DNA from: Zoopage sp. CT-All
Taxonomy: Eukaryota; Zoopagomycota; Zoopagomycetes; Zoopagales; Zoopagaceae
Assembly (NCBI GenBank): GCA_004114245.1
Contig: QZWS01000046.1
Coordinates: forward strand, 1-34,578
DNA length: 34,578 nt
Direction: 5' to 3'
The notes under the pieces were generated by a model. That model was not told the origin of the DNA and did not search any database. It was given only the letters and a program-made list of their open reading frames with translations. This document shows, piece by piece, positions 4,600-24,890 of this stretch. Position 1 is the stretch's first letter, and each line of letters starts with the position of its first letter. A program made the position numbers and the translations under genes.

Positions 4600-5853
4600 C
4601 TACTGGCGGATAAGGTCCAGGCGAGCCATCCACTTCTGGTCCCGGAATCGGCCGCACGGCTTTGAGCGCATCTTGGAGTGGAATTCGGCATCGAGGCAGG
4701 CATTGCTCTTGTCGGCATTACGCAAATAGAAGACACCGTGCTTATTGGTAGAGCCGAGCGAGAACTTGGTCGACTTGACGTCACAGGGGTAGAAGCGAGT
4801 GCCGGTGGTCTCGCTGCGGGCGCACAGCTCGTTGCCGTTATGGACGATGACGAGATTGGCGAGGTTGTTGTCGGGGGAGGGGCGCCAGTAGAAAGCCATG
4901 TTGGAGCTGGCCGGGATAGCCTGCTCCAGACTGCAGCGCTCGGTGACGAGGCGAAGGCGGTGACGACGGCCCCTGGGCTTGACCGAGGCGCAGGTGCCCT
5001 TGTGGGGATTGTAAAGGGCAAAGGGTCGCTTGGTGAGGAAGGAGTTGGAGGTGAAAGGAACGGGAATCTCGGAGTTGGCTCCCTCGACATTGTCCTCGGA
5101 ATCAGCGTCAACACCGTTCTCCTCCGTCTCCTCCTCATCTTCTTCCTCGGCAACAGCGGCGACCTTGACCGGGCGCTTGGCGGAGCGGGTGACGGTGACG
5201 ACAGTGGTGGGCGAAGCCTTGGACTTGGCCTGTCTGATGGGAAGAGCGGCCCTGGCGGCGGGTGCTGCCCTGGCCGCAGCTGGTGGACCATAGGCGTTCT
5301 CGGGCTCGCTATCTTCCTCTTCACGGTCTTCTCCGACCGAGTCAACACCGACGGCAACCACGGTCTTTTTAGGGCCTGCGGGGGTAGCCACGGGCCTAAG
5401 AACGGGAGCAACCGACTTGGCAGCGGGCTTGCGAGCAGGGACGACGACTTCCTCCGCCTCCTCCTCCGCCTCCTCCTCAGCCTCCTCCGGCTCGTTGTCG
5501 CGCGAGACGGTCACGGTGGTCTTGCCCGAGGCGCGGGCGGCAGCCACGGGCTTGCGGACGGTCACGGTGGCCTTTGCCCTAGCAACGGGCCTGGCAGCAG
5601 GCTTGCGAGCAGGGACGACGACTTGCTCGACCTCCTCCTCAGCCTCCGCCTCTTCCTCCTCCGGCTCATTGTCCTGCGAGACGGTCACAGTGGTTTTGCG
5701 CGAGGCGCGGGCAGCGGCGACACCGGAAGCGGTCGCGGGGAGCGAGTCGTCGACAAACGGCGCCCAGGTGAAGTCCTGCGACCCGGCCTCGACAAGGGAG
5801 GTCGCGACGCAGAGGACGGCGGCAAGAAGCGGGAGCATACGGATGGCGTGCAT
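4600..5853 (-). CDS. Secreted protein 1: Val/Glu repeats plus C-terminal six-cysteine trefoil-like domain
   Basis: The 417-residue protein begins with a clear signal peptide (MHAIRMLPLLAAVLC, cleavage likely after VEA near residue 23). Residues about 45-165 hold two copies of a 58-residue repeat (KTTVTV, NEPEE acidic run, VVVPARKPAA). More Ala/Lys/Glu low-complexity sequence follows to about residue 255. Residues about 278-417 form a compact domain starting FALYNPHKGTC with six cysteines spaced C-x18-C, C-x12-C and C-x13-C, ending CGRFRDQKW. The final Gln-Lys-Trp after a cysteine resembles the QxW motif of ricin-B beta-trefoils. The same domain occurs in the proteins at 8181-9476 and 24183-24890. 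It is intronless with the start at 5853. Secretion is well supported; carbohydrate binding is inference only. Confidence 0.82.
   Translation of the reverse strand: MHAIRMLPLLAAVLCVATSLVEAGSQDFTWAPFVDDSLPATASGVAAARASRKTTVTVSQDNEPEEEEAEAEEEVEQVVVPARKPAARPVARAKATVTVRKPVAAARASGKTTVTVSRDNEPEEAEEEAEEEAEEVVVPARKPAAKSVAPVLRPVATPAGPKKTVVAVGVDSVGEDREEEDSEPENAYGPPAAARAAPAARAALPIRQAKSKASPTTVVTVTRSAKRPVKVAAVAEEEDEEETEENGVDADSEDNVEGANSEIPVPFTSNSFLTKRPFALYNPHKGTCASVKPRGRRHRLRLVTERCSLEQAIPASSNMAFYWRPSPDNNLANLVIVHNGNELCARSETTGTRFYPCDVKSTKFSLGSTNKHGVFYLRNADKSNACLDAEFHSKMRSKPCGRFRDQKWMARLDLIRQ
5411..5725 (-). repeat. 174-bp in-frame tandem duplication in secreted protein 1
   Basis: Two adjacent copies with a 174-bp period (58 codons) encode the KTTVTV / Glu-rich / VVVPARKPAA module. 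Matching plus-strand anchors begin at 5419 and 5593. The copies differ by scattered substitutions, mostly conservative, so the duplication is not brand new. Confidence 0.85.
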
Positions 5854-6643
5854 GGTGGATGTCGTAAGTGGTTGAGTCTACGATGGAGCGTTGGCTGGTG
5901 GTGGGGTGGTGGAGGAGAAACCCGGCGGTGGCGGCCACGAGGCGAGCAGGCGTTTTCAGCCGGCACCGCCATGTGGGTGCCTGACAAGCAGAACATGTGT
6001 TCTGTTCCGTGGATTGTTGTTTGCAGCGGATGGACGGCGATGTTTGGGCTGTGTTTGGGCTGTGCTGTGTAGTAGAGGTTTGCGTCCTGGTATAGAAGCT
6101 GCTGGGTGGGTTTCTGCTGTGGCCTCTTGACAGGCATCAATAATACTACAATTGTGAGGGCTCCAAGGTGGATCTGATGAAGCTTCTATGCATTGGGACC
6201 AGCACTGGTGTTGGTTGGATGAAGAAGAAAAGACCACCATAAGAATTGTCTAGCCAAATAGTTGATCTGGATTTATAGACACTTATAGTTACAGTCTCTT
6301 TCTCTTTGTCAACACTAGTGTTGACCCTAATACACCAAATCACTCCAGCACCTCCTCTCTGCCTCCTCTCTTCCCTATCTCTTTGGTTGATATCCATTGA
6401 GAAGCTGCTCTTGCAAGGGGTCAAGGACTGCTGGCAGACAAATGACTAGTACATTTCCCCTTATCTATTGCACACCGCACTGTTCACCGCACTGCTCGCC
6501 ACACTTTCCATAATCTCATGGTTGCAGTCACTCAAACATGTGTACCAATAACTCGATGGCCACCTCGCGCTGCCAGGGGTTGTCCTCTGTAGACTGTCGC
6601 CAGCGAGCGCCCCCTTTTTGCCCTCTCTCGCACCAAATCCGCA
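5854..6643. other. Intergenic region between secreted protein 1 and RPL4 (divergent promoters)
   Basis: This 790-bp region separates two divergent genes and must contain both promoters. Its middle (about 6130-6470) is AT-richer than the surrounding genes, and the part just upstream of the RPL4 ATG is pyrimidine-rich, as often seen before highly expressed fungal genes. Reading frames here look like chance frames. An 18-bp palindrome lies at 6308-6325. Confidence 0.6.
6308..6325. repeat. 18-bp perfect palindrome
   Basis: GTCAACACTAGTGTTGAC is identical to its reverse complement. It sits in the intergenic region between the divergent genes for secreted protein 1 and RPL4, where a dimeric regulator could bind; a chance palindrome is also possible. 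Confidence 0.6.
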
Positions 6644-7777
6644 ATGTCGACCACCGCGCGCCCGCTCGTCCAGGTCTACTCGGAATCCGCCAAGCACACC
6701 GCCGTCGCCTCCGCCGCGCTCCCGGCCGTGCTCCACGCGCCCATCCGCCCAGACATTGTTCAGGCCGTGCACACCCGCATCGCCAAGAACCGCCGCCAGC
6801 CCTACGCCGTCTCGGAGAAGGCCGGCCACCAGACCTCGGCCGAGTCCTGGGGCACGGGTCGCGCCGTGGCGCGTATCCCGCGTGTCAGCGGTGGCGGTAC
6901 CTCGCGCTCCGGGCAGGCCGCGTTTGGAAACATGTGCCGTGGCGGTCGCATGTTTGCGCCAACCAAGACATACCGTCGCTGGCATGTCAAGGTGTCGGTG
7001 AACCAGAGGCGCTTTGCCGTGGTCTCGGCGCTCGCCGCGACCGCGATCCCCGCGCTTGTCCTTGCCCGTGGCCACCGCATCGCTCACATTCCCGAGGTGC
7101 CGCTGGTGGTTGCTGACGGCGTCGAGTCGATCTGCAAGACCAAGATGGCCGTCAAGGTGCTCGAGACGCTGGGCGCGTACAGCGACGTCGTCAAGGTCTC
7201 CAACTCGCGCCGCATCCGCGCCGGCCAGGGCAAGCTGCGCAACCGCCGTCACCGCCAGCGCCGCGGTCCCCTCATTGTCTACAAGGAAGATAGCGGCATC
7301 ACGCGCGCCTTCCGCAATCTCCCAGGCGTGGAGCTCTGCCAGGTCTCGCGCCTCAACCTCCTCCAGCTCGCCCCCGGCGGCCATCTCGGTCGCTTCGTGA
7401 TCTGGACCCAGGGCGCGTTTGCCCACCTCGATGCGCTGTACGGCACATACCGCAAGGCGTCGACGCTCAAGGCCGACTACCACCTGCCCCGCGCACCCAT
7501 GACCAACCCCGACGTGGCGCGTGTAATCAACTCGGACGAGGTGCAGTCTGTGCTCCGCCAAAAGGGGCCGGCGCGCACCAAGCGCCCGTACTCGCAGAAG
7601 AAGAACCCGCTGCGCAACTCGCAGGTCATGATGAAGCTGAACCCGTACGCAGCAGTGTTTAGGCGCCAGGAAGCTGCGCTGAGGGAACGCAAGGCCGCGG
7701 GCAAGGTCGAGGCCAAGAAGGTGGTCAAGAAGCAGCGCGCGTCCAAGGACTTTGTCAAGATGCTGCACCAGAACTAG
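6644..7777 (+). CDS. RPL4: 60S ribosomal protein L4 (uL4)
   Basis: Structural protein of the large ribosomal subunit; in the uL4 family an extended loop lines the peptide exit tunnel. The 377-residue intronless frame contains the hallmark eukaryotic block [14 protein letters not shown] followed by [20 protein letters not shown] (residues about 87-127), then [36 protein letters not shown] and [19 protein letters not shown] near the C-terminus. Its length is close to that of yeast L4. The ATG at 6644 gives a family-like N-terminus ([14 protein letters not shown]). Codon use is strongly C/G-ending, consistent with high expression. The long minus-strand frame across this gene is a composition artefact. 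Confidence 0.98.
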
Positions 7778-8180
7778 ATTGCAGCGCAATAGCAGGTGGA
7801 ATGCAGCCAGTTCTGCCAGCAGAGTGTACACACCGAGTTAAAAGATTGATGTTGGCCAAACCTTGTCTCCGCTTGACATCGGTCTGAGCAGCATTTGTCA
7901 GCAGTGCAGTATATTAGCGAATAGTTCAATCTAAGACTCCGACATCAGCTTCATCTGCTGGTGGAATGCTCGTGACACGCCTTCTGCCCCATGGTCTGCC
8001 GCATGGCTCGACAGCGACCGCATGGCCACAGTTGCTTAAATCAAACAACGCCTCGCTCCCTGCGCCCTCTTCCTCCACCTTTGCCCGCCTCCATCTCCAC
8101 CCGCCACTCGCTCCGCGCCATACATTTCCCACCCACTTACACTTTCTCCGCCTCCTTTTCCCTTCCTTTCGATACGCACC
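7778..8180. other. RPL4 3' flank and promoter of secreted protein 2
   Basis: These 403 bp contain the RPL4 3' untranslated region and the upstream region of the 8181-9476 gene. The last 130 bp before the ATG are C/T-rich on the plus strand, typical of a fungal core promoter and leader. I see no RNA gene or repeat. Confidence 0.6.
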
Positions 8181-9476
8181 ATGCACGCTCGCTTCTCCTC
8201 CTCACTGCTGGCCATCTCCACCGTAGCGGTTGTGTTTCTCGCCACCGCCGTCTCGCCGTCCCCCGCTTCGCCCGCCCTCATTCGTCGTGATAATGCCTAC
8301 AGTCCCCATGCGTTGCCTCACCACGACGATGGCGAGTACGATGACGAGGATGGCCGCCTCCCTATCCATCACGATCAACCGTCGTACGGTGGCGGCCATC
8401 TCCCTGTCCATCACGATCGGTCGTCGTACGGTGACGGCCACCTCCCAGACCACCATGACCGGCCTGCATACACTGGTGATGTGCTCGGTGCCCACCAAGA
8501 TAATATGCTGAATCACGCCCCGGCCGCACATATGGGCCCGAATATGGGCAATATGGTCGGCGGCACCACCTTTGTTCCGAATGGTGGCCAGCGTTTCGTG
8601 GACACGGTGGTAGTGCACGACCATCGCGACGGAACCGTGTTGGAGACTACTTCACAGAGGGATACGGTCTCGCCTGTCGGCAGCGTTGGTGCTATCCATG
8701 CAGGCCAACCGGGCCCCATGTTTGGTGCACCTGGCCCCGCATTTGGCGCACCTGGCCCCGCGTTTGGTGCGCCTCGCCCCGCATTTGGCGCACCTGGCCC
8801 CGCGTTTGGTACGCCTCGCCCCGCATTTGGCGCACCTGGCCCCGCGTTTGGCGCACCTGGCCCTGCGTTTGGCGCGCCTCGCCCCGCGTTTGGCGCACCT
8901 GGCAACCCAGCACCATTCAACCCGCAACTTGCCGGCCGTCCGCTGGTCAACCCATCCCTTGCCGGCCCGGCACCAGTCAACATGATTCCTGCCGGCCCCG
9001 CGCTCCTGTCACGCCAGTCATTTAACGTTCCCGAGCTCTTTGCGCTGTACAGTCGCAGTCAGCACAAGTGTGTGGCGCTCAAGGAAGGCAAGCGCAGGCT
9101 CGTAATGGAGCATTGCTCGCCCGAGCAGCACTTCGACCTGCATTCGCACATGGCGTTCCACTGGGTCCCTGTGAATAACAACCTTGCGCACCTGGCTATT
9201 TTCCACGCCGGTGCACGGCTGTGTGCTACCGCCCATAAGATTGGAACGTACATGGAGCCGTGTGGCCCGAACAGTATCAAGTACTCGATCAGCGATAGCC
9301 ACAAGACTCACGGCGATGGCGATGAGATTTCTATTCGCGATGGAGGTCGCACTTCGCAGTGCATGTCGGCAGAATTGCACCTTCACATGAAGACGTGCGG
9401 ACATTTCAGGAAGCAGCGGTGGACGAAGATCCACATTGCCTTTATGAATCAATTGGCAAACCCATTGGCTGGGTAA
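8181..9476 (+). CDS. Secreted protein 2: His/Pro repeats plus C-terminal six-cysteine trefoil-like domain
   Basis: The 431-residue intronless protein starts [19 protein letters not shown], a signal peptide, with cleavage likely near residue 30 and an IRRD dibasic site shortly after. Residues about 50-100 contain three copies of an HHD-x-SYG-GHLP module rich in His and Asp, suggestive of metal binding. Residues about 180-242 are nine heptads of the type AFGAPGP. The C-terminal domain, residues about 287-431, begins [11 protein letters not shown] and has six cysteines spaced C-x14-C, C-x12-C and C-x11-C, ending CGHFRKQRW. It aligns with secreted protein 1 throughout, for example CS-x-EQ, MAF-x-W and NNLA-x-L-x-I. 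A ricin-B-like beta-trefoil is the best structural guess. Ligand and target are unknown. Lies 55 bp upstream of the HIG1 gene. Confidence 0.82.
8718..8906 (+). repeat. 21-bp tandem repeat (9 units) encoding AFGAP[G/R]P heptads
   Basis: Nine 21-bp units encode heptads that vary mainly at the sixth residue, Gly or Arg. In-frame unit size allows length change without loss of frame. The alternation of Gly and Arg types looks like higher-order duplication of blocks. Confidence 0.9.
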
Positions 9477-9531
9477 GATTTGCAATGCAGTCCACTTACT
9501 GCATATTGTCACGTGTCATTTGCAACCATCA

Positions 9532-9903
9532 ATGGCCTCTGTCTGGGATCATGTCAAGCAGCGCGCGCGCGAAGAGCCTTGGGTCCCGCTCGGTACATCC
9601 CGTCCTTCTGCCTCTCCCTCTCATTCCATTCTAGGTGCCGCGGCTACTGTCGGTGCCCTTGTCATGGCAACCATCTCGCTGCGCCGCGGAAACCGACAGT
9701 CCACAAATACCTATCTCCGCCTCCGCGTCGCCCTACAAGCCGCTACTGTCGTATCCATGCTCGCCGGATCCGTCTTTGTCGCCGATAAGCGCCGATTGGA
9801 GCGCATCCAGGCGCAAGAAGAGGCGGAGGCGCGGCAACTAGAGAGAGCCAAGGCCAAACAGGTGTTGATGGGGGGTGGTGGGAGTGGCGGGGGCACCATG
9901 TAA
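9532..9903 (+). CDS. RCF1: HIG1-domain protein (respiratory supercomplex factor 1-like)
   Basis: HIG1-domain proteins sit in the mitochondrial inner membrane and help cytochrome c oxidase assembly and supercomplex formation. The predicted 109-residue protein needs removal of a 42-bp GT-AG intron at 9593-9634. This converts the junction into WVPLGAAATVGALV, which fits the family pattern PLG-x3-T-x-GAL much better than the read-through version. Because 42 is a multiple of three and has no stop, the unspliced frame is also open. Two membrane helices are evident (about residues 19-36 and 52-70) and RLRVALQ between them matches the family R-x-R-x3-Q motif. A charged coiled-coil segment (RRLERIQAQEEAEARQLERAKAK) and a Gly-rich tail follow. 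The start is the ATG at 9532. It is convergent with the membrane protein gene 66 bp downstream. Confidence 0.85.
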   Translation: MASVWDHVKQRAREEPWVPLGTSRPSASPSHSILGAAATVGALVMATISLRRGNRQSTNTYLRLRVALQAATVVSMLAGSVFVADKRRLERIQAQEEAEARQLERAKAKQVLMGGGGSGGGTM

Positions 9904-9969
9904 TAGATGTATAATATAATTCTTGCATCAGCACATGTTAACTACAGGTTTGCGTGCCGAGGGCAATAT

Positions 9970-10503
9970 CTACGAGGATAGCGCGGGTTCATCGTTGCCT
10001 GTAACTGGCGCTTTTTCGCCCGCATTGTCGCCCGACTCATCCACGACAATGGTCATCTGACCGAATGCTTCTTCGTCGACAGCGGACTTTGATTTGGTGG
10101 TGCTGCCAGCGACAGCGCTGGACCATAATCGCCCGCCGTGGATTCCCGTCTTCTCCCCCGATCCGGAATCGCCAGACGCGGAATCTTTCGCCATCTGTGG
10201 CGCGGTCACCCCATCTTCAATATTATTCTTTCTGCGCCTAGCCAGACGACGACGGCCGAGCACAACCACGTACGCCCAGCAGAAGCACGTCACGTACAGA
10301 GCAGCGACGCATCCAAGCAGGATCAGGAACACGATAAGGCTGGAAGTAACATTGGAAGAGGCAGACGTGGATGTGAGGAATGAGAATGGGGAGGCGTCGG
10401 CGGGCGGTGCAGCGGGCGGTGGGGAGTTGGTCGGCGGAGGGGCGCGAGATATGCCAGGCGTCGATGGCGAGGTGGATGCCTCAAGGGGCGATAATGCGCT
10501 CAT
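9970..10503 (-). CDS. Small single-pass membrane protein (membrane protein 3)
   Basis: The 177-residue intronless protein, read from the ATG at 10503, has a Ser/Thr/Pro/Ala-rich first 55 residues with no obvious cleavable signal. One helix follows at about 56-82 (SSLIVFLILLGCVAALYV, then CFCWAYVVVLG). A strong basic stop-transfer (RRRLARRRKN) leads into an 85-residue acidic/Ser-rich tail. An in-frame ATG at 10644 would add 47 residues, but a TATATA sequence at 10519-10524 lies inside that extension and the shorter start gives the architecture of the sister genes. It is the shortest of the six single-pass proteins in the window. Function unknown. Confidence 0.65.
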   Translation of the reverse strand: MSALSPLEASTSPSTPGISRAPPPTNSPPPAAPPADASPFSFLTSTSASSNVTSSLIVFLILLGCVAALYVTCFCWAYVVVLGRRRLARRRKNNIEDGVTAPQMAKDSASGDSGSGEKTGIHGGRLWSSAVAGSTTKSKSAVDEEAFGQMTIVVDESGDNAGEKAPVTGNDEPALSS

Positions 10504-10662
10504 TCGCAAAGGCAGAAATATATACTCAAAGTCTAGCGAGAAAGAAGCGTGGTGATGAAAGGTGTGGGCGGAGGGACGATCGGTGGGATGCACAGCGCGT
10601 TGGCGCCAAAAATAGCCCAAGTTTGACGCGTCGAGAAGCAGCACAGAGTATAGTGTACAGTG

Positions 10663-11138
10663 TTAGCTCGCTCTTAGCAGCCGAAGCAGCTCATCAAGCA
10701 TGCCGACCTCCATCTCCAGCGACACCACGGGGGATACCTGCGGTGCAGAGTGCATCACCACCGACGCCTGGTCGACAACGCCTGTGGACGATGTGATGGC
10801 AGCCCCCAATCCTTGTGACTCCACGTATGACATGGCCTCACGCAGGCCACTGCGAATTTCCTATTCCGCTCAAATAAGCATGTATGCACAGAGAATAACA
10901 CGCGCCATACTTGTACAAGGCGCGCGTACCGCCCAGCGTGGGCACGAAATTCCGCCAATCTGGACAATACTGCCCGTTGCATCGCCGCCTCGTCATCGTC
11001 CTCATCGTCCCCCTTTCCTGCATCATTTATTGCACTATTTCCCCCTGTTTCGGAGCGATGCGGCGGATTGGGGCTGTTGGGGCTTGAGTCTGCAAGAATG
11101 GAGATGGCGGAAGCCGCGGCTTCAACCAATTCGCTCAC
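10663..11138 (-). CDS. Uncharacterised 141-residue acidic/helical protein, one intron
   Basis: I do not recognise this protein. Exons are 11138-10911 and 10860-10663, separated by a 50-bp GT-AG intron (donor GTATGG, acceptor AATAG, phase 0). The spliced protein begins MSELVEAAASAISILAD, has a polar stretch with an acidic run (GDDEDDDEAA, residues about 42-51), then a probably helical segment (AVLSRLAEFRAHAGRYARLVQ joined to EIRSGLREAMSYVESQG), and ends in an amphipathic helix (EMEVGMLDELLRLLRAS). Continuity of helical pattern and frame across the junction supports the intron. Small helical complex subunits (Mediator, kinetochore, BLOC-like) can look like this, but no motif decides. It is divergent from GABA transaminase, with 177 bp between the two ATGs. 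Confidence 0.6.
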
Positions 11139-11315
11139 ACTCTATCCGGCAGCGTCAGTGAGCGTCTATCAGTCGCTGTTGTTTGTCACACGTCCTGGAT
11201 TCCCGCAAGCCGGGTGATATGCTCGGCCAAAGCCGCACGCCCGGTTTCCGGATCGTCGGCCTGCATAGCACGTTCTGGCTTTTCTCCGCAATCGGCCACT
11301 GCGCTTCCCGCGAAA

Positions 11316-12854
11316 ATGCTTGGCCGCCGCATGCCTTCCCCTGCTTTCCGCTCCGCCTCCCTCGCATCGACTCTGTCACGACATCTTGTCCCGCATCGTT
11401 CCGTCCGCGCTGCCGTATCTGTCCGCACAATGGCCACGGCGGCATCGTACTTTCCATCGCAGCCCTCTGCTCCATCACTCACCTCTGCCGTTCCTGGTCC
11501 CGAGTCGCTCAGGCATTTGGCCGCGCTCGACGTCACTCAAGATCGCCGTGCAGCGACGTTTGTTTTGGACACGGACAAGTCTATCGGCAACTACGTCGTG
11601 GATGTTGATGGCAATTCTATGCTCGACTTGTACTGTCAGATTGCATCACTTTCGCTCGGATACAACAATCCGGCGCTGCTCAAAGCCATGTCGGATCCCA
11701 AGGTTGCGAGAGCGCTGGCGAACCGGCCAGCACTTGGCGTCAATCCGACCGCAGACTGGGTGGAAACCGTCGAGCGCGCATTCATGCGAGTTGCACCAAA
11801 AGGCGGTCTCACCGCGGTCTTCACCGCCATGTGTGGAAGCTGCGCGAATGAAATCGCATACAAGACCGCATGCTTCTATCACCAAAGGCTAAGGCGCGGC
11901 GTGGATGCAGATTTCGCAGTCGAAGATATGGAATCGTGCATGCGCAACGCCACTCCCGGCTCACCCGACCTTGCCATCCTCAGCTTCACCAAGGGATTCC
12001 ACGGCCGGCTGTTTGGCAGTCTGAGCACGACCCGCAGCAAGGCCATCCACAAGGTGGATATTCCCGCATTCAACTGGCCCCAAGCGCCGTTTCCCCAGCT
12101 CAAGTACCCGCTCGAGGAGCATGTCGCAGCAAACAATGCGGAAGAGGCGCGTTGTCTGGCCGAGCTGGAGACGATTCTGAAGGAGAATCCCATGCCGGTA
12201 GCCGCGGTGATAATCGAGCCAGTGCAATCAGAAGGTGGTGACCGCCACGCGTCGCCAGCATTTTTCCGCGGTGTCCGTGAGGTGACCAAGCGCCATGGCG
12301 TGCTGATGATTGTGGATGAGGTGCAGACGGGTGTCGCTGCCACTGGAAAATTCTGGGCTCACGAACATTGGGGCCTGGCGGACGGCATGGAGCCAGATAT
12401 GGTGACGTTCAGCAAGAAGTTCCAGGCTGCCGGGTTCTACTACAAGCCCGAGCTGAAACCCGCGCAGGCGTACAGGAACTTTAACACATGGATGGGTGAT
12501 CCCGCGCGCGCCTACCTCGCCTCAGCCATCATCGACGAGATTCATGACAAGGGATTGGTGGAGCACGTTGCCAAGGTCGGAATAGCATTGACTGGGGACC
12601 TCAGGGAGCTAGAGAAGAAGTTCCCCAACATTGTGCAAAATGTTCGCGGATTGGGCACATTCTGTGCATTCGATTGTCCGGATCAGGCCACGCGTGACCG
12701 CGTTGTCGGAGAGATGCGAGCTCAAGGAGTGAATATGGGCGGCAGCGGAGAGCAGACTGTGCGCTTGAGGCCTATGTTGGTATTTGGCAATAAGGAGCGC
12801 GCGGTGTTTATGGAGCGTCTTGAAACAGTTGCAAAGAAGTTGGCAGGACAGTAA
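11316..12854 (+). CDS. UGA1: 4-aminobutyrate aminotransferase, mitochondrial
   Basis: A class III pyridoxal-phosphate aminotransferase that moves the amino group of GABA to 2-oxoglutarate, giving succinate semialdehyde and glutamate (GABA shunt). The 512-residue intronless protein has an N-terminal extension rich in Arg/Ser and free of acidic residues (MLGRRMPSPAFRSASLAS), predicted as a mitochondrial presequence. Family marks are AMCGSCANEIAYK (the two cysteines that in mammalian GABA-T hold an iron-sulfur centre), EPVQSEGGD, IVDEVQTGVAATGKFWAHEHW and TFSKKFQAAGFYY. In the last, Lys367 or Lys368 is the cofactor lysine. The frame is open upstream to 11214, but 11316 gives the cleaner targeting sequence. 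Yeast UGA1 is cytosolic, so the presequence is a real difference and resembles the animal enzyme. Confidence 0.95.
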   Translation: MLGRRMPSPAFRSASLASTLSRHLVPHRSVRAAVSVRTMATAASYFPSQPSAPSLTSAVPGPESLRHLAALDVTQDRRAATFVLDTDKSIGNYVVDVDGNSMLDLYCQIASLSLGYNNPALLKAMSDPKVARALANRPALGVNPTADWVETVERAFMRVAPKGGLTAVFTAMCGSCANEIAYKTACFYHQRLRRGVDADFAVEDMESCMRNATPGSPDLAILSFTKGFHGRLFGSLSTTRSKAIHKVDIPAFNWPQAPFPQLKYPLEEHVAANNAEEARCLAELETILKENPMPVAAVIIEPVQSEGGDRHASPAFFRGVREVTKRHGVLMIVDEVQTGVAATGKFWAHEHWGLADGMEPDMVTFSKKFQAAGFYYKPELKPAQAYRNFNTWMGDPARAYLASAIIDEIHDKGLVEHVAKVGIALTGDLRELEKKFPNIVQNVRGLGTFCAFDCPDQATRDRVVGEMRAQGVNMGGSGEQTVRLRPMLVFGNKERAVFMERLETVAKKLAGQ

Positions 12855-13140: not shown

Positions 13141-13231
13141 CCCTGTACATCCCGACACAAAGAATCACCATGCTCTTGTCAGCGTACAGAGAGACTCAAA
13201 TAGCAAGTATCGCTAACGAACGCACAAAAAC

Positions 13232-13314
13232 ACTCCACACGGGACTTGAACCCGCAGCCTTCGAATGTCGTCTTTAATAGAAGTTCGACACGCTAACCAT
13301 TGCGCCAGTGGAGC
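13232..13314 (-). tRNA. tRNA-Arg (anticodon TCT) with 11-nt intron
   Basis: Read on the minus strand: acceptor GCTCCAC/GTGGAGT, D stem GCGC/GCGT, anticodon stem TCGAA/TTCGA, T arm GCGGG-TTCAAGT-CCCGT. The anticodon loop is CTTCTA, then an 11-nt insert at 13267-13277, then A, so the intron falls at the canonical position after base 37. The intron contains AAAGA, able to pair with the TCT anticodon as in tRNA splicing substrates. Mature length is 72 nt before CCA. A TTTTT terminator follows directly. Confidence 0.93.
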
Positions 13315-17200: not shown

Positions 17201-17282
17201 TGTATGAGTTATAAAACGATCTCAATTATGCGCAGCAACAACGCGTGTTTGCAACAACCGTATGCCGCCCTGAAAAGTGATA

Positions 17283-18779
17283 TTAAGGGAACATCGAGTT
17301 GGCGAGCGGATGCCGACGACCGGGGGGTTGGTAGCGACCGGAACCACCGCCAATGGCAGGCTGGGAGGACGGCGGTGAGGTGGACGACGGCTCCGCAGGG
17401 TCTACAGAGTCTGCGCCATCCGAGGAGGTGCCATTTGACGACGGTGCCTGCTGAGCGCGAAGGGCCAGTTGGTGCATATGTGCCTGCTGTTTGCGGAAAT
17501 CCTCTTCGGCCTGCAACCGCATCAGCTCCTGCTCCTCGTTTGTCATCATCCCGCTGAGAATGGCAGCCATGGCGAGATTTGGATCGGCGGTGGTGGCTGT
17601 AGCAGCAAGACTCGCATTCGTCGCCGCGAGCAAGGCTGGATCCGCAAGGCCAGCGACGGCGGCATCACCCTGAGCCAGCACGGCGGGTTGAGTGCGCCAG
17701 AGCCCGTATTCTGTCCCAGGGACCGTCTGCCATAGGCGAATGGTACCGTCCTCACTGCCGGTGGCGTAAAGCTCGCCGTCGGGGCTGTACGCGACTGCGT
17801 GGACGGGACCATGATGACCGCGATACACCTCCATCTCCTCTCCGGTGGGGAAGCGGAATACACGCACCCAGGTGTCCGAGCGACTGCCACATACGAAGCG
17901 ATCCCGGAGCGGGTGAAGTGCAACACAGGAGATATCGTAAGGGGTGTCGACACGGCATGCAAGCTCGTAGGTCTGCGCCGACCAGAAGTAGACAGACTTT
18001 CCGGCCGCGGCTTCCACCACCTCGCCGTCATCAGACAGGCGAAGATACGCGACGGGGTCAAGCGTTTCCATCGTGTGCACCAGCTCAAGCGTATCCGCGG
18101 CCCAAATCTTGACATTTTTCTCATCGGCCGCGGTGATTATTGCACCGCGCCAGGCATCCCAGAGCACCGTTTTTATCGCAGCATTATGCGCCTTGACCTC
18201 CACTACGCCGGTGGTTGGCGCCTGCGGCTTCTTGGTCGGATCATCCGGGTTATTGTTTGGCGGGATCACGTCGAGGTCAAACACGCGCAGCACCTTTTCA
18301 TTTCCGCCCGATACGACGTACCTGCCATCGGGGCTGATGTCCACGGAGCGCACAACATGGCGGTGCGGGAACGTGTACTGCACCGAGCCGGTATACGTGT
18401 CCCAGATCTTGATTGTGAAATCGGCAGATCCGGTTACTGCACGCGATGCATCCTCATTCAGCCGCGCGCACCACACGGCGCCCTTGTGACCGGCAAATGT
18501 GCCGATCCAGTCGCCTGTATCGCCAATACGCAGCATCGGGGAGCCGTCTTTGCAAGCAGAGATGAGTAGATAGTTACCATCGTCGAGGATGCGCGAGAAC
18601 TGCAGCTGCACGACGGGACGGGTGTGGCCGGCGCAGGTGAGCGGGACTTGGCGCGGGTTGTTTAGGGCGGAGGAGGCGGGCGACTGCGAACGCGGCAGCG
18701 GCGGGGTGGCTGTGGCCGAGGGCGGGCCGGTGGCAGGGGCGGTGCCAGAGGGCGGAGTGGCGGGGGCGTCGGCAGACAT
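17283..18779 (-). CDS. STRAP: STRAP-like WD40 protein (serine-threonine kinase receptor-associated protein / unrip)
   Basis: A seven-bladed WD40 protein; in animals STRAP/unrip works with the SMN-Gemin complex in snRNP assembly and in TGF-beta receptor signalling. The 498-residue intronless frame contains the family signature in order: RQVPLTCAGHTRPVVQLQFS, LISACKDGSPMLRIGDTGDW, GTFAGHKGAVWCARLNEDAS, TGSADFTIKIWDTYTG, SGGNEKVLRVFDL, TGSEDGTIRLWQT. WD repeats occupy residues about 40-350. A 150-residue C-terminal extension absent from the 350-residue animal protein is Ala-rich, then has a charged helix (NEEQELMRLQAEEDFRKQQAH) and a Ser/Pro-rich end. An in-frame ATG at 18827 adds 16 residues; I prefer 18779 (MSADAPATPP). 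No kinase receptors of the animal type are expected here, so an RNA-assembly role is more likely. Confidence 0.92.
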   Translation of the reverse strand: MSADAPATPPSGTAPATGPPSATATPPLPRSQSPASSALNNPRQVPLTCAGHTRPVVQLQFSRILDDGNYLLISACKDGSPMLRIGDTGDWIGTFAGHKGAVWCARLNEDASRAVTGSADFTIKIWDTYTGSVQYTFPHRHVVRSVDISPDGRYVVSGGNEKVLRVFDLDVIPPNNNPDDPTKKPQAPTTGVVEVKAHNAAIKTVLWDAWRGAIITAADEKNVKIWAADTLELVHTMETLDPVAYLRLSDDGEVVEAAAGKSVYFWSAQTYELACRVDTPYDISCVALHPLRDRFVCGSRSDTWVRVFRFPTGEEMEVYRGHHGPVHAVAYSPDGELYATGSEDGTIRLWQTVPGTEYGLWRTQPAVLAQGDAAVAGLADPALLAATNASLAATATTADPNLAMAAILSGMMTNEEQELMRLQAEEDFRKQQAHMHQLALRAQQAPSSNGTSSDGADSVDPAEPSSTSPPSSQPAIGGGSGRYQPPGRRHPLANSMFP

Positions 18780-19068
18780 GCGTGTTTCGGGGGATAGATG
18801 GAGGGCGAGAGAGCGTAGGGAATGCACAGTTTAGCGGTGGAAGAGAACGCGGCGTCTCGGGGATCGGCGGCAGGCGCACTGATGAGTGGGCAAATGAGCA
18901 GAAAAGTCGGTGCCAGCCATCTGCATAGCTTGATGATGACGATGACGTGCTGCCGGGGTCAAGGCCCGAAGTTTGAGGCCTGGATTTAGCGGTGCTTTGG
19001 AGTGGCAGTGACGGGCGCACGCATGCACATGCAATGGCAAGAAATTGGGTCGGGAAGGGATGCAAAAT

Positions 19069-19149
19069 GAGAGAAGTGGGATTCGAACCCACGCCTGTTT
19101 CCAGACCACGACCTGAACGTGGCGCCTTGGACCGCTCGGCCATCCTCCC
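19069..19149 (-). tRNA. tRNA-Leu (anticodon CAG)
   Basis: Minus-strand type II tRNA: acceptor GGGAGGA/TTCTCTC (two G-T pairs), D region TGGCCGAGCGGTC, anticodon stem CCACG/CGTGG around loop TTCAGGT giving CAG, a long variable arm (TCTGGAAACAGGC) and T arm GTGGG-TTCGAAT-CCCAC. No intron. A TTTT run follows shortly after the 3' end. Confidence 0.95.
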
Positions 19150-19417
19150 AATGTGATGATTCGGGAATATTATTAAACGACATATACAATGACTCGGCAA
19201 CGAAATTTTACGCTGACTTTTGCGCGGCGCCAAAAATTAGAGGGCAAGCTAGCACAATGGCCAGAACACGGCTTTACACCCTTGCACTGAGCCCAGGCAC
19301 TAGTCCGTCCTCTGGTTGACTTGCAGTGGCAGACATCCATGTAGTGACAGACATACATGCAACCGTTTCATCATCAAAGGCGAGTGCAAAGCACCCTGTA
19401 TATCATCACTTTGGAAG

Positions 19418-19438
19418 CACACACACACACACACACAC
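19418..19438. repeat. (CA)n microsatellite
   Basis: About 10.5 CA units lie immediately downstream of the glutamine synthetase stop codon, in its presumed 3' untranslated region. Confidence 0.95.
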
Positions 19439-19443
19439 TTGTC

Positions 19444-21747
19444 CTAACGGAACAGCATCTCGGTGTAGCGCGGCAGCGACCAGAACTTGTCGCCGCACCA
19501 GTCCTCCAGTTGGTCCGCCGCCTCGCGGATCTCCTCCATCAACGGGTACAGCGTGCTGCGACACAGACGGGCAGCCTTTTCCACCGAGTGCTCCGTGCCA
19601 TCGTCCGCAGCCACCACTTTGTCAACAGCAGTCTCGAGCTGGGCAAGGGTTTTCTGGACCTTGACGGCCTGGATGCTTGTACGCTTGAGAATAGCCTTCT
19701 CTGGCAGCTCCTCGTCGGCCAGACCGCACTGGGCCATCGCCGCACAGGTGTCGGCCAGCATTTTGCGGTACTCAAACACGGAGGGGAGGACCTGGGTGCG
19801 GAGCATCTGCAGCAGCGTGTTGGCCTCGATCAGCATATCCTTGGTGTACTTCTCCATGAGGATGTGATAGCGCGAGTGGAGCTCGTCGCGCGAGAAGACG
19901 CCGAGCGAGACAAGCATATCGGCATTCTCGTCCTTGAGCAGTTGGGCAAAGGCGGTAGGCGCATCCTGGATGTTTGGCAAACCGCGGGTGGCGGCCACAT
20001 CGGCCCAGGCCTGCGAGTAGTTGTCGCCCTCGAAGCGCACATGCTTGGACACCTTGATGAAGTGGCGAATGGTGGCGACCTTGTCGGCGTCGTTGGGATA
20101 CGCGCGCCCTCCGGCCTTGGAGCATTCGCGGAGCTTGGCAGCGACCTCGCGGATCGAAGCGGCAGCGGCCGAGTTGAGCAGCGTCATGGGGAAGGACGGG
20201 CTCTGCTTGGAGCCGACCGCGCGGAACTCGAACTTGTTTCCGGTAAAGGCGAACGGAGACGTGCGGTTGCGGTCCGTCAAATCGCGGTCAATGTTGGGGA
20301 GCGTGTCGACCTTGATGTCGAGCACGGTTCCACCAAGCTTGATAGAGTGAATCTCGGGCTGCGAGAAGGATTTGATCGGGCGACTCTCTTCAATGCTGTC
20401 GAGGACCTCGGAGAGCTGCTCGCCGAGGAACGCGGAGATGATGCCTGGCGGAGCCTCGTTGGCGCCAAGACGGTGGTCATTGGAGGCAGAGGCAATGCCA
20501 GCGCGGAGCAGGCCGCCGTGCTTGGCGAGCGCGTTGAGCGTCGCGACAAGGAAGAGAAGGAACCGATAGTTGGTTTCGGGCTTGTCGGTGGGGTTGAGCA
20601 GGTTGGAGCCGCGCTCGGTGGCCATGGACCAGTTGCAGTGCTTGCCGGATCCGTTGATGCCGCGGAACGGCTTCTCGTGGTAGAGGGCCGTAAGATGGTG
20701 GCGAGCGGCAACTTTGGAGATGACGTCCATGGTCAGCAGGTTATGGTCGACCGCCACCATGGCCTCCTCAAAGATCGGGGCCACCTCGAACTGGCACGGG
20801 GCGACCTCGTTGTGGCGCGTCTTGAGAGGCACGCCGAGGGCGTACAGCTCACGCTCGGCCTCGGAGATGAGCGCGAGCACCTTGGATGGCATCTTGCCAA
20901 AGTAGTGGTCCTCGAGCTGCTGATGGCGCGGCGGGATGGAGCCGAGCAGAGTGCGACCAGACATTTTCAGATCGGGGCGGAGGTTGGCCATCGCCTGATC
21001 GATGAGGAAAAACTCCTGCTCCGTTCCAAGGGTGGTGTTGACGTGCTGGACGTAGGGCGGGTGACCACGCGGAGCAGGGTCAAGGAGATCGATGAGCTCG
21101 ACAGCGGCCTGCGAGAGGGCGGCCGACGAGCGCAGCAGCACCGTCTTCTCGTCGAGCGCTTCTCCGTTGTACGAGATGAAGACGGAAGGGATGTAGAGAA
21201 TCTGGGTGTTGTTGGGCGCCTCGCGGATGAACATGGGCGAGGTGGTGTCCCAGATGGTGTAGCCGCGGGCCTCGAACGTGGTCCGCATCCCGCCCGACGG
21301 GAACGACGACGCATCGGGCTCGGACTGCAGCAGCTGCGATCCGCTAAACGTATCGATGGCGTGCGTCGGATCCACCCCGGCGTGGGCGGAGGACCCCGCC
21401 GCAAGGGTCAGGAACGAGTCGTGCTTCTCGGCCGTAGAATCCGTCTGCGGCTGGAACCAGTGCGTAAAGTGCGTCGCGCCGCGGTTCATGGCCCACACGC
21501 GCACGGCGTGAGCCACAGCGTCCGCTGTGGCCTTGTCCATCTGCTGGCGGCCACGCATCTGACGCAGAAACTGGGCGTACACAGGCTTGGGCAGTGCGGC
21601 CGCCATCTGCTTGAGATTGAAGACGTTCTGGCCAAACATCTCCGAAGGGTACATGGTACGCTGCGGGTTGGTCGCCACGGTGGGATAGTCGACGGCGCGG
21701 AGTGCGCGGTCGTCGCCGGCACGGAGAGCAGCACTGCGGGCGTCCAT
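19444..21747 (-). CDS. Glutamine synthetase, type III (GlnN-like)
   Basis: Makes glutamine from glutamate, ammonia and ATP. The 767-residue intronless protein is about twice the length of the usual fungal GSII enzyme and matches the large GSIII class. Marks in order: NTTLGTEQEFFLID (metal-binding glutamates, residues about 237-250), RHNEVAPCQFEVAPIFE (311-327), DHNLLTMDVISKVA, EKPFRGINGSGKHCNWSM (nucleotide/glutamate site, 358-375), LLRAGIASASNDHRLGANEAPPGIISAFLG and, near the C-terminus, a helical region typical of GSIII. The start is the ATG at 21747, after a leader lacking family sequence. GSIII is best known from bacteria and scattered protists; its presence in a fungus is notable. Codon use resembles its neighbours, so any transfer is not recent. 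Confidence 0.95.
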   Translation of the reverse strand: MDARSAALRAGDDRALRAVDYPTVATNPQRTMYPSEMFGQNVFNLKQMAAALPKPVYAQFLRQMRGRQQMDKATADAVAHAVRVWAMNRGATHFTHWFQPQTDSTAEKHDSFLTLAAGSSAHAGVDPTHAIDTFSGSQLLQSEPDASSFPSGGMRTTFEARGYTIWDTTSPMFIREAPNNTQILYIPSVFISYNGEALDEKTVLLRSSAALSQAAVELIDLLDPAPRGHPPYVQHVNTTLGTEQEFFLIDQAMANLRPDLKMSGRTLLGSIPPRHQQLEDHYFGKMPSKVLALISEAERELYALGVPLKTRHNEVAPCQFEVAPIFEEAMVAVDHNLLTMDVISKVAARHHLTALYHEKPFRGINGSGKHCNWSMATERGSNLLNPTDKPETNYRFLLFLVATLNALAKHGGLLRAGIASASNDHRLGANEAPPGIISAFLGEQLSEVLDSIEESRPIKSFSQPEIHSIKLGGTVLDIKVDTLPNIDRDLTDRNRTSPFAFTGNKFEFRAVGSKQSPSFPMTLLNSAAAASIREVAAKLRECSKAGGRAYPNDADKVATIRHFIKVSKHVRFEGDNYSQAWADVAATRGLPNIQDAPTAFAQLLKDENADMLVSLGVFSRDELHSRYHILMEKYTKDMLIEANTLLQMLRTQVLPSVFEYRKMLADTCAAMAQCGLADEELPEKAILKRTSIQAVKVQKTLAQLETAVDKVVAADDGTEHSVEKAARLCRSTLYPLMEEIREAADQLEDWCGDKFWSLPRYTEMLFR

Positions 21748-21881
21748 GGTGGGTGTGGATGCGGGTGTGGGTGGGCAGCGGAGGAAAAAGCTGCTGAAGG
21801 AGATTTGATGTGAGCCAACAGCACATCTCCGGCACTGCACCCAATGCACGATGCCATGATGATTTATTAGGCGCTTGTATT

Positions 21882-22723
21882 CTACAGATTCCGGGCCGCT
21901 GCTAGCGAGTTGGCCACATGAGCGTGCACGGTGGCCAGCGGATCGCTGCGAAAGGCAGGATGGGCAAGAACATTTTGGAATCGCTGCATCTCAGCAAGCG
22001 CCGCTTTTTTCCTTTCCTTGGCCGTCAGGACTTTTCCCTTGGATATCGCAGATGCCTTTGCAGAGGGCATGGCAGCGCGAGCCGGATCAATTACGGCTGC
22101 TGTGGTTGCAAAAGGCGCCACTCCACTGACCACGACTGCTGGCTCGGCTTTAGGAAGTCGTGCCATAAATATATCGTCATGCTGCGGGAGAGCTTCCATC
22201 AGATCGTCAAGCGCATGCGAGGCAAGTGGAGCAATGCGACGCTGCCGTGATTTAGCGTGCTTCGCCAGCGACGGCTTTCCCAGTTCTGCAGCTCGACGAT
22301 GAAGCTCTGTATCCAGCGCACTACGGTTCTGCTCCAGTTCTAAATACGATATAGAACACATTTTAGCAATGTCCGCATACTTTGACGAAAGAGCTGCCGT
22401 TTCCGGATCTGACGCTGCTTCCGGGTAACAGCAAGCACATCGTCATCATCCGTTTCGCGCACTTTCACGCCCACCTCCCTCGGTTGAATTCTTTCGACAG
22501 CGCCCACTGCCTGCTTCACTGCGTCTGTGAACCCGCTCATGGACAAGTCCAAATCGCGAACTGGTGCCATTAGCACGTTCTTGCCATCGGCGGCGAGCGA
22601 CGCAGCGATTGACGCCGCCGGAACGATCTCAGCCGCTCGCGAGGCAGCATATGGGTGTGTGCGGAGCAAAGAACCGCCCGTGCAGCCGCCGGAAAACCGC
22701 TTGCTGGACTTGATTTTTGGCAT
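21882..22723 (-). CDS. SLX9: Ribosome biogenesis protein SLX9 (FAM207 family)
   Basis: SLX9 is a nucleolar factor of 40S pre-ribosome maturation and export. Exons 22723-22381 and 22339-21882 are joined by a 41-bp GT-AG intron (phase 1), giving 266 residues; the junction reads RKRQLFRQKLEQNRSALD, like the animal family's RREQWLQKIEA. Other matches are a basic N-terminus (MPKIKSSKRF), LDDLMEALPQHDD (animal LRDALPEL) and the C-terminal block EMQRFQNVLAHPAFRSDPLATV, which closely follows the family's ERTRFQELLASPAYRASPLVAI pattern. An upstream in-frame ATG at 22738 is also possible; 22723 is chosen for the conserved-looking start. Divergent from the zinc-ribbon gene. Confidence 0.85.
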
Positions 22724-22784
22724 CGCAACGTGCGGCAAGAAAATCGTGCACAGTCATCAGCTTGGCAGCTCCCACCATCCCGCC
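22724..22784. promoter_or_regulatory. 61-bp bidirectional promoter gap, SLX9 / zinc-ribbon protein
   Basis: Sixty-one bp separate the divergent start codons (22723 and 22785). As in the cyclin Q/CIAO1 pair, there is no room for separate promoters and no TATA box is evident. Confidence 0.55.
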
Positions 22785-23206
22785 ATGTTCTTTTTCATCG
22801 GCAAGTCTCTGCGAAGTTCGCCTGGTTGTTGCAATTCACCTCGTTTGCCACAGGAGGCGTCAACTCAGTCACGAAGCTGCTGACCGACCAGCTCTTTGCA
22901 TGCCCCAATTGCCGCAACCACGCTTCGGTGCGCCATCTGCAACGCTTGAACAAGCTCTCGTTGTTCTTCATTCCCCTGGCGACCATTTCAAAGAAGAACC
23001 CAGTGTTTGAGTGCAGCGTCTGTGGATGGTGGAGTCCGCAGCATCCCCCTCCGCCAGCATATCCGTCACATCCTCCGCCAACTATTGACGAATACGCAAG
23101 TGGCAAGCAGACGGGCCAGGTGTCCCAGGGAGCGTGTGGGTCGTGTGGAGCTTGGGTGCCGTCAGCTGATTATCGGTTCTGTCCAAGGTGTGGTGCCCAG
23201 CGTTAG
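22785..23206 (+). CDS. Small zinc-ribbon protein with candidate GC-AG intron
   Basis: A 122-residue protein with two zinc-binding units. Exon 1 (22785-22800) encodes MFFFI; a 53-bp intron with donor GCAAGT and acceptor CACAG (22801-22853) joins it to GGVNSVTKLL and on to FACPNCRNHASV, LSLFFIPLATISKKNPVFECSVCGWW. This order (hydrophobic FFFI-G start, CPNC, FFIPL, lone CxxC) is that of the fungal zinc-ribbon 15 family. After a Pro-rich linker come two more CxxC pairs, GACGSCGAWV and FCPRCGAQR, forming a second, C-terminal zinc ribbon. Without splicing no ATG gives the family N-terminus in frame. Molecular role unknown. Confidence is high for the domains, moderate for the first exon. Confidence 0.75.
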
Positions 23207-23242
23207 TGGCGCCCAACGTTAGTGGCGCCCAGCGTCAGTGGT
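23195..23242 (+). repeat. Three 16-bp tandem repeats spanning a stop codon
   Basis: Units at 23195-23210, 23211-23226 and 23227-23242 (consensus GCCCAGCGTTAGTGGC) differ at one to two positions. The first unit contains the last codons and TAG stop of the zinc-ribbon gene, so the repeats extend from coding into the 3' untranslated region. Confidence 0.9.
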
Positions 23243-23368
23243 AGCAATTATGTAATTTTGTTCAACTGCAACTGACTTCCAGTGTTGGTGCTGATGCCGT
23301 CACATAAATGGCTTAATGATGTAATAAATTGCTAGTCAGCATGTTGCTGCACGCATATCAAAAGAACT

Positions 23369-23440
23369 GCTCCCTGCCAGGCTCGAACTGGCGGCCTTCA
23401 GATTATGAGACTGACGCTCTACCGACTGAGCCAAGGAAGC
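23369..23440 (-). tRNA. tRNA-Met (elongator, anticodon CAT)
   Basis: Minus strand: acceptor GCTTCCT/AGGGAGC, D arm GCTC-AGTCGGTA-GAGC, anticodon region GTCAGTCTCATAATCTGA identical to the yeast elongator tRNA-Met anticodon arm, T arm GCCAG-TTCGAGC-CTGGC. No intron. A TTTT run follows. Confidence 0.96.
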
Positions 23441-23596
23441 CATGACGCTAATTTGGACAGAGTAAATTATCAACAATTACTGAAAATTGCAGAAAAATTT
23501 GGTGGCAAAAAACCGCGATTTTTAAAGAGGTAGTTCTGGCTGGCCTCAAGGCGCTGCCCATGTGCTGAGAAGCATGAAAGATAATGATGTAGTATT

Positions 23597-23618
23597 CAGA
23601 ATGTTCTAGAACATTCTG
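23597..23618. promoter_or_regulatory. Perfect four-unit heat-shock element (22-bp palindrome)
   Basis: CAGAATGTTCTAGAACATTCTG is its own reverse complement and contains GAA, TTC, GAA, TTC at exact 2-bp spacing, the alternating nGAAn array bound by trimeric HSF1. The nearest plus-strand gene is secreted protein 3, 565 bp downstream. Function is inference from the motif. Confidence 0.6.
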
Positions 23619-23700
23619 GAGCAAAACAAGTAATATTTAAGCTGCTTGTGTACTGGATAGCTGACAAATATGTACTTTGTTGTGCTGAACATCTCTCTCA

Positions 23701-23730
23701 CTCCACCATATGCAATAACATATAGTGGAG
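23701..23730. repeat. Hairpin-forming inverted repeat
   Basis: Arms 23701-23712 and 23719-23730 (CTCCACCATATG / CATATAGTGGAG) pair over 12 bp with one G-T wobble around a 6-nt loop. It could be a transcript hairpin or part of a degraded element. Confidence 0.7.
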
Positions 23731-24182
23731 AAGTATTATGATGCAGAGCAGGAAGAAGTAGAAGAAGAAAACGTTCTTTTAGAAGGTCATATGGCCACTA
23801 CAGCCTTGTATACCACTGAATGACACTATTCAATGATAGCCACCATATCCCAACAATAGTTGTGGAATATGACCATCCAATCCAAAGCAAACACCAACCT
23901 GCAACAAGAAGTGTAGTAGAATTCAATCACAGGGGGAATACAGTGGTAGCAGCACTGGAAGAGGATTGGTGATCGATGTAACTGCGTACATCTGTGCCAG
24001 GCGCAACACAACAACACAGGAATGCCAGTGCGCTGAGCGCCGCGTGGTAATGCCACATGGTCTCTGATTGCAGAAAACACGCTGCCGCCACGCCGCCATC
24101 TGCCCCGCTTTTTCCTCTCCACTCGCCACCACACCAACGACCGCATCCGTAACGTTTCGTCACACCCACGTAGACCATCATC

Positions 24183-24890
24183 ATGCACGCCATCAACGTC
24201 CTCGTCGCCATCGCCTCCGCCATTGCGTTGCTTTCTGCTACCGCCACCCCCGCTGCTGCCCGCAGGGCCCTGCCTGTACCTCGCCCAGCCCTTACCGTCG
24301 ATTCCATCGGCACTATCATCTCCCCCACCATGATATTCGGCCGCAACGGCCGATGCCTCAGGTATGAAAAGGGCTCCCGGCTCCGGAAGACCTTGAAGCT
24401 CAGGCAGACGAAGAAATGTGCTCCCGAACAGGCTGGCAAGAAGGCCGGTCAGCTCCGCTTTGTTTTCAAGCCCGTACGCGGCTCTGTGCTTGAGGGCAAG
24501 CTTGCGATCCTAGTCGCTGGCGCTACCGAGGGCGATGAAGACATTGAATATTGCGCCTACGCTGCTGCCGGGCGCCGTGTTCGCTTCAGCAGCTGCTCTG
24601 GCAAGCGCGTGCTCGTATTCCGCCGGATGCGCCGCGATGCGAATGCCAAGGGCCGTGGCGCGCGCGATTTCCTGCAAACCGTTGCCGTCAAGCCCAAGTG
24701 CCTCACCATGCACCGCCACCGTGTGCGACTTGAGAAGTGCAAGGACCACCATAAGCGCAGTAAGGGCGCCCCTCGCCAGAGGCATGGCAAGAAGGGCAGG
24801 AAGGCCGCCGCCGCCGAGGAGGCAGAAGAGGCAGAGGAGGAAGCAGAGGAAGAGGCAGAAGAAGAGGAAGAGACCACTGCAGCAGCATGA
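24183..24890 (+). CDS. Secreted protein 3: six-cysteine trefoil-like domain plus Lys/Glu-rich tail
   Basis: The 235-residue intronless protein begins MHAINVLVAIASAIALLSA, a signal peptide nearly matching the start of secreted protein 1, with cleavage probably at ATPAAA and an ARR dibasic site next. Residues about 50-198 hold the six-cysteine domain in divergent form: spacing C-x20-C, C-x13-C and C-x12-C, with CAPEQ in place of CSPEQ and LAILVAG in place of [10 protein letters not shown]. The final Trp motif is absent. The domain is very basic. Residues 198-235 are a Lys-rich then Glu-rich tail (KKGRKAAAAEEAEEAEEEAE). Here the low-complexity part follows the domain, whereas in its two relatives it precedes it. 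No function assigned. Confidence 0.78.
   Translation: MHAINVLVAIASAIALLSATATPAAARRALPVPRPALTVDSIGTIISPTMIFGRNGRCLRYEKGSRLRKTLKLRQTKKCAPEQAGKKAGQLRFVFKPVRGSVLEGKLAILVAGATEGDEDIEYCAYAAAGRRVRFSSCSGKRVLVFRRMRRDANAKGRGARDFLQTVAVKPKCLTMHRHRVRLEKCKDHHKRSKGAPRQRHGKKGRKAAAAEEAEEAEEEAEEEAEEEEETTAAA

Follow-up and report, generated by a model that had tools for sequence, protein, structure and literature searches.

The contig QZWS01000046.1 of the fungus Zoopage sp. CT-All (assembly GCA_004114245.1) encodes three proteins with signal-like starts and an unfamiliar domain of six cysteines, and it raises the question of what this domain is, whether the three proteins belong to one family, and what such a family might do. 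The window analyzed here is the entire contig (C294 in our numbering; 34,578 nucleotides), from a genome assembly that totals 8.62 Mb over 419 contigs. The reading favored below, to which we give a probability of about 60%, is that the three are secreted proteins without enzymatic activity and form a small family that evolves fast, its members joining a degenerate R-type-lectin beta-trefoil head, stapled by disulphides, to low-complexity stalks that are unrelated to one another.

The three open reading frames (ORFs; 417, 431 and 235 residues, referred to as proteins 1, 2, and 3) are present where the first-pass annotation had located them (Table 1), protein 1 being on the minus strand, which had been left unsaid. 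As that annotation also described, all three begin with Met-His-Ala (MHA) followed by a hydrophobic, signal-like stretch within residues 3-25, as judged by hydropathy alone without a signal-peptide program, and the MHA start occurs in 3 of the 146 ATG-started window frames of at least 60 residues, which are exactly proteins 1, 2, and 3. On a codon index whose reference is three neighboring housekeeping genes (themselves 0.58-0.78), the proteins reach 0.69, 0.62 and 0.61, respectively, compared with 0.41-0.57 for four opposite-strand frames, so that the margin of protein 3 over the best of these (0.61 vs 0.57) is small. A 410-residue frame that lies open opposite protein 1 (4840-6072, plus strand) is probably a by-product of GC-rich coding, because its codon index is 0.51 against the 0.69 of protein 1.

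Each domain contains six cysteines (protein 1 has a seventh, Cys15, inside the signal-like stretch), arranged in pairs, one per putative lobe (alpha, beta, and gamma). The proposed C-x(11-20)-C spacing is correct, since the within-pair gaps are 18/12/13 in protein 1, 14/12/11 in protein 2, and 20/13/12 in protein 3. The C[SA]xEQ motif at the second domain cysteine is likewise found in all three (CSLEQ, CSPEQ, and CAPEQ), and a QxW near the end is confined, as had been noted, to proteins 1 and 2 (QKW and QRW, the latter in a gamma lobe reading CMS ... QRW). The LAxLx[IV] motif, ascribed to the domain as a whole, was recovered in proteins 1 and 2 and is absent from protein 3. Finally, the different low-complexity partner reported for each secreted-looking head, acidic/Val, His/Pro or Lys/Glu, can be read in the sequence, and a secreted head on such interchangeable stalks would suit a wall or contact protein.

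Proteins 1 and 2 share the six-cysteine domain at 40-43% identity, with a score of 244 that is reached by 0 of 1000 shuffles (mean 28.5, standard deviation 4.9), which places their homology, as judged from sequence, beyond doubt. Once aligned they are 41% identical; their likeness at third codon positions is 0.43, compared with 0.56 and 0.59 at the others, and their best nucleotide match has an expectation value (E) of 0.16; the two look like old duplicates. The claim of a common domain is thereby clear for this pair, while protein 3 does not stand as an equal member, as 9 and 5 of 1000 shuffles, respectively, do at least as well as its pairwise scores of 43 and 45 against proteins 1 and 2. 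With that, it is conceivable, as a minority possibility, that protein 3 is unrelated and that the family consists of proteins 1 and 2 only. Protein searches of its own genome agree with this, in that protein 3 returns itself alone and proteins 1 and 2 recover only each other, and so does the lack of LAxLx[IV] and QxW in protein 3. Two further results weigh in the same direction and against the favored reading: the gamma lobe of protein 3 resembles no other lobe above z 1.5, and the profile of proteins 1 and 2, which gives protein 3 15.1 bits, gave 14.6 bits to a single chance frame when 2589 frames, taken from 98 loci, were scored. This frame, on contig C330, was rejected as a new member, as it runs antisense to a 327-residue frame. 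On the other hand, of the 314 window frames scored with the same profile, protein 3 comes third, well ahead of a fourth frame at 4.6 bits, and its trimmed domain has 15.9 bits, a value attained by none of 1000 full shuffles and by none of 1000 in which the cysteines stayed fixed. Its CAPEQ sits at the same cysteine, with the six cysteines in the common order, and the full cysteine/CxxEQ arrangement is limited to proteins 1, 2, and 3 among the 2589 frames. In addition, its alpha lobe resembles the alpha lobes of proteins 1 and 2 (z 2.6 and 2.6) and its beta lobe their beta lobes (z 2.3 and 2.3), and among the 146 window frames the MHA start is exclusive to the three. Because a chance frame came as high as 14.6 bits, the case for protein 3 draws no less on its motifs and its MHA start than on its score, and, by a weaker inference than for the pair, protein 3 is likely to be a third and more eroded member.

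The fold of the domain was approached by structure prediction. The beta-trefoil is a twelve-strand, three-lobed fold. The AlphaFold model, built without a template, is poor and shows eight strands (predicted local distance difference test 51.7; predicted template-modeling score 0.48), and a second structure model was too poor for use. Among the matches listed, the Foldseek matches of this low-confidence model are almost all beta-trefoils, which makes the beta-trefoil the best-supported and a probable fold for the modeled domain; that it is combined with three intra-lobe disulphides can be held with fair confidence. Neither a confident different fold nor an already named domain was encountered, the model pointing to a beta-trefoil and no Pfam family reaching its cut-off for proteins 1-3, with nothing relevant in NCBIfam.

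Kinship to the ricin-B (R-type) lectins was gauged against the only ricin-B locus that PF00652 and PF14200 scans found in the genome, an alpha-galactosidase that ends in a genuine ricin-B domain (C277:6393-9842), which as a positive control passes PF00652 with 66.2 bits vs 29. With the cysteines fixed, the gamma lobe of protein 1 matches the beta lobe of this domain at z 5.6, and masking QxW on both sides leaves z at 5.4, the former value being the best of 27 comparisons, with a mean z of 1.46 over all 66 lobe pairs. Several results weigh against the proposed kinship. With QxW masked, the same protein 1 lobe reaches only z 1.7 and 1.6 with the two other galactosidase lobes, and the gamma lobe of protein 2 gives z -1.7, -0.6 and 0.5; the profile of proteins 1 and 2 scores -1.4 bits on the galactosidase domain (hhalign E 0.38); and RicinB_lectin_2 (PF14200) on residues 363-409 of protein 1 obtains 14.8 bits, below its cut-off of 25.6. 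The galactosidase domain, not supported as a relative by the profile comparison, was kept as a yardstick. Within-protein lobe likeness is weak, being seen between alpha and beta in protein 1 (z 2.0) and protein 2 (z 2.9), with no other pair above 1.5; the lobe pairs of the galactosidase domain have z 5.0, 3.8 and 2.3. In the Pfam scan, neither PF00652 nor PF14200 is listed at E <= 1 for protein 2 or protein 3. Against the PDB, the three-row profile has a single match at E <= 10, with a chain of an R-type lectin (E 1.5, not significant), and PDB sequence searches returned a telomere-factor-interacting protein for protein 1 (E 0.38) and nothing for protein 2.

These results also bear on the notion that the domain is a lineage-specific cysteine-rich fold, its trefoil look coming from a set of three C-C loops together with a QxW present by chance. 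The low model confidence, the lack of a family model above cut-off, and the failure of the profile comparison to link it to the galactosidase domain are in its favor, but it is quite unlikely, as the structural matches converge on one fold though no template was given, and one lobe matches a genuine ricin-B lobe with cysteines and QxW discounted. The ricin-B-like, three-lobed beta-trefoil suggested by the first-pass annotation is thus probable, in view of the cysteine pair in each lobe, the Foldseek matches, and the likeness of one lobe to genuine ricin-B. The domain is not classed, on its sequence, as a member of PF00652 or PF14200; it probably has the R-type trefoil architecture, perhaps by descent from such a trefoil.

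With respect to function, an Asp two residues past the first cysteine of a lobe marks what we take to be the sugar-binding position, as in ricin. This C-x-D is present in one of the nine lobes of proteins 1-3, compared with all three lobes of the galactosidase domain, and it is accompanied by QxW in that one lobe only, the gamma lobe of protein 1 (CLD ... QKW). Most canonical sugar-binding positions are missing, and sugar binding, like the cell-wall or host-interaction role put forward in the first-pass annotation, is supported weakly, if at all. If sugar is bound in the classical manner, the single site that looks suited to it is the gamma lobe of protein 1. The chances are about even that the head would bind a polymer, glycan or other, on the wall of the fungus itself or at the surface of a partner, in protein 1 perhaps mainly through the gamma lobe, while the acidic, His/Pro or Lys/Glu stalks might keep it within the wall matrix or at a distance from it.

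The lack of the sugar-site Asp and QxW in most lobes would equally be expected of a non-lectin beta-trefoil, whether R-type-derived or independent, that serves as a secreted protease inhibitor or other protein-binder (Kunitz-, mycocypin-, or cocaprin-like). Fibroblast growth factor and Kunitz-inhibitor structures are present among the Foldseek matches listed, and fungal beta-trefoil protease inhibitors, the cocaprins, are on record (PMC9104457). Such a role is nonetheless rather unlikely: the matches found by profile and by PDB sequence include no inhibitor family, the only lobe likeness surviving masking is that to a ricin-B lobe, and the cocaprins are described as small, 15 kDa proteins (PMC9104457), whereas in proteins 1 and 2 the head is joined to a long stalk. 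The degenerate R-type head on low-complexity stalks thus stays the preferred reading, and a more far-reaching form of it can be considered only tentatively and with the odds against it, namely a new, lineage-private beta-trefoil family whose stapled head, set on several unrelated fast-evolving stalks, has had its ricin-type sugar site swapped for a new ligand surface, producing modular wall or contact adhesins invisible to sequence searches.

As to distribution, a search of 5.8 billion proteins with the protein 2 domain gave 108 candidates, none at E <= 10, and one with the three-row alignment gave 1111, none at E <= 1; the search covers candidates that share short words with the query and have 0.55 to 1.75 times its length, and a head joined to a very different or much longer partner could escape it. 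As a control, the 4-aminobutyrate aminotransferase of the window yielded 3551 relatives at E <= 1e-50 among 8000 scored. The genome contig set searched, of bacteria and archaea only, produced 118 pattern matches and viral contigs 24, with 0 confirmed by tblastn. In the fungus's own genome the C[SA]xEQ codon pattern has 114 matches (reversed control 69), of which 100 were listed, 3 of them in this contig; no fourth copy was seen at 96 of the 97 listed places outside it, screened in six frames of at least 50 residues, some cut by contig ends and with introns ignored. The AGY form of the pattern has 23 matches, one being protein 1 and the other 22 lying outside this screen. AbfB (PF05270) had no match in the genome, with a control that was also silent, which makes this result uninformative. 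The expectation of a lineage-restricted multicopy family is accordingly borne out in that no relatives outside the genome were found, and less so in its multicopy part, as the copies found are these only, all on this contig. The literature searched held no published description of the family, by which absence from print is not claimed. The apparently private nature of the family may reflect unsampled relatives, because the collection holds fungi but showed no close relative of the organism. Among the 120 matches listed for the aminotransferase, named relatives are mostly fungal, at identities of up to 60%, and many are Mortierella- and Coemansia-type fungi, consistent with an early-diverging fungus that has no close relative in the protein collection.

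The window also contains six ORFs for single-span membrane proteins, most with a Ser/Pro/Thr-rich part before the span, Lys/Arg after it, and a low-complexity tail, and none with a Pfam match at E <= 0.01. Some of them may form a local family, because 6 of the 15 pairs exceed 200 of 200 shuffles. Each MHA gene has one such ORF next to its 3' end, on the same strand for protein 1 and on the opposite strand for the others. Shuffle scores were also used to look at segmental duplication of an "MHA gene + single-span membrane protein" unit: membrane ORF 2, beside protein 1, has scores with ORFs 3 and 4 that are reached by 91 and 116 of 200 shuffles, while the pair of ORF 3 and ORF 4, which flank the genes of proteins 2 and 3, respectively, exceeds 200 of 200; biased composition and shared membrane segments keep these scores from deciding for or against a duplication. 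Ordinary eukaryotic genes on the contig encode ribosomal protein L4, a WD40 protein, a RasGAP-domain protein, and a type III glutamine synthetase (19444-21747, minus strand; GSIII_N 227.8 bits), the last in an apparently fungal contig. ARAGORN places a tRNA with an undefined anticodon at 13231-13314 (minus strand).

Table 1. Positions of the three MHA genes, their parts, and the membrane-protein ORFs in the window
Feature	Position	Strand	Description
Protein 1 gene	4600..5853	-	417 residues; signal-like start, stalk of acidic/Val repeats, six-Cys domain at the C-terminus
Protein 1 signal-like start	5785..5853	-	MHA, about residues 1-23; hydropathy, cleavage point guessed
Protein 1 stalk	5071..5784	-	low complexity; duplicated KTTVTV...NEPEE...VVVPARKPAA unit
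Protein 1 stalk DNA repeats	5450-5488 and 5506-5607	-	
Protein 1 six-Cys domain	4603..5070	-	residues 262-417
Protein 1 lobe alpha	4900..5028	-	Cys288-x18-Cys307, CSLEQ
Protein 1 lobe beta	4744..4854	-	Cys344-x12-Cys357
Protein 1 lobe gamma	4609..4734	-	CLD ... Cys400 ... QKW; closest to canonical ricin-B repeat
Protein 2 gene	8181..9476	+	431 residues; signal-like start, His/Pro stalk, C-terminal six-Cys domain
Protein 2 stalk, first repeats	8352..8446	+	14-residue HHD...Y...GHLP, 42-base period, 2.3 copies
Protein 2 stalk, second repeats	8708..8903	+	7-residue PAFGAP[GR], 21-base period, 9.3 copies
Protein 2 six-Cys domain	9000..9443	+	residues 274-421
Protein 2 lobe alpha	9033-9149	+	
Protein 2 lobe beta	9192-9302	+	
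Protein 2 lobe gamma	9324-9443	+	
Protein 3 gene	24183..24890	+	235 residues; signal-like start, six-Cys domain that is divergent and lacks QxW, tail rich in Lys and then in Glu
Protein 3 six-Cys domain (residues 48-197)	24324..24773	+	
Protein 3 lobe alpha	24324-24449	+	
Protein 3 lobe beta	24501-24638	+	
Protein 3 lobe gamma	24669-24773	+	
Protein 3 tail	24774..24887	+	Lys/Arg then Ala/Glu, low complexity
Membrane ORF 1	1569-2909	-	single span
Membrane ORF 2	3276-4340	-	single span
Membrane ORF 3	9970-10503	-	single span
Membrane ORF 4	25224-26333	-	single span
Membrane ORF 5	26736-27821	+	single span
Membrane ORF 6	27814-29289	+	single span

If the preferred reading is true, an unannotated family of secreted proteins would be added to a poorly sampled fungal branch, and R-type lectin domains would be seen to drift below the sequence models tried and yet keep their cysteine frame, much like the microsporidian ricin-B-like proteins. 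The interest is chiefly for the fungal secretome and for the cataloguing of beta-trefoils, the fold and the general role being already familiar.

Compared with known systems, the domain shares with the ricin-B/R-type lectins (PF00652, PF14200; CBM13) the three lobes, the two cysteines per lobe, the probable beta-trefoil and, in proteins 1 and 2, a terminal QxW. It differs in that QxW occupies one of the three lobes of proteins 1 and 2 and none in protein 3, and in that C-x-D at the first cysteine is restricted to a single lobe of protein 1. Published ricin-B modules carry 0 to 6 QXW (PMC11212257). The nearest published parallel noted is offered by the NbRBL proteins of Nosema bombycis, which PMC9224602 presents as 52 genes in clusters of diverging paralogues, many with signal peptides, some of which lose the recognizable domain, and with an alpha-lobe QxW changed to QxF, as likewise in protein 2, whose alpha lobe has QHF. 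In that, 52 genes stand against two or three here, the long low-complexity stalks belong to the present proteins, and the likeness noted is one of description. The salivary beta-trefoils of Culex (PDB 7kc8), second-ranked among the Foldseek matches (E 0.13), are likewise secreted beta-trefoils grouped by predicted structure (PMC10027276), but they are animal salivary proteins with solved chains of 138-141 residues, and the likeness noted is structural. A possible model for what the head might do is provided, by analogy, by the chytrid Batrachochytrium salamandrivorans, for which PMC8490390 reports a ricin-B-like lectin in chemotaxis and adhesion to galactose, although that protein, unlike the six-cysteine head, is a recognized ricin-B lectin.
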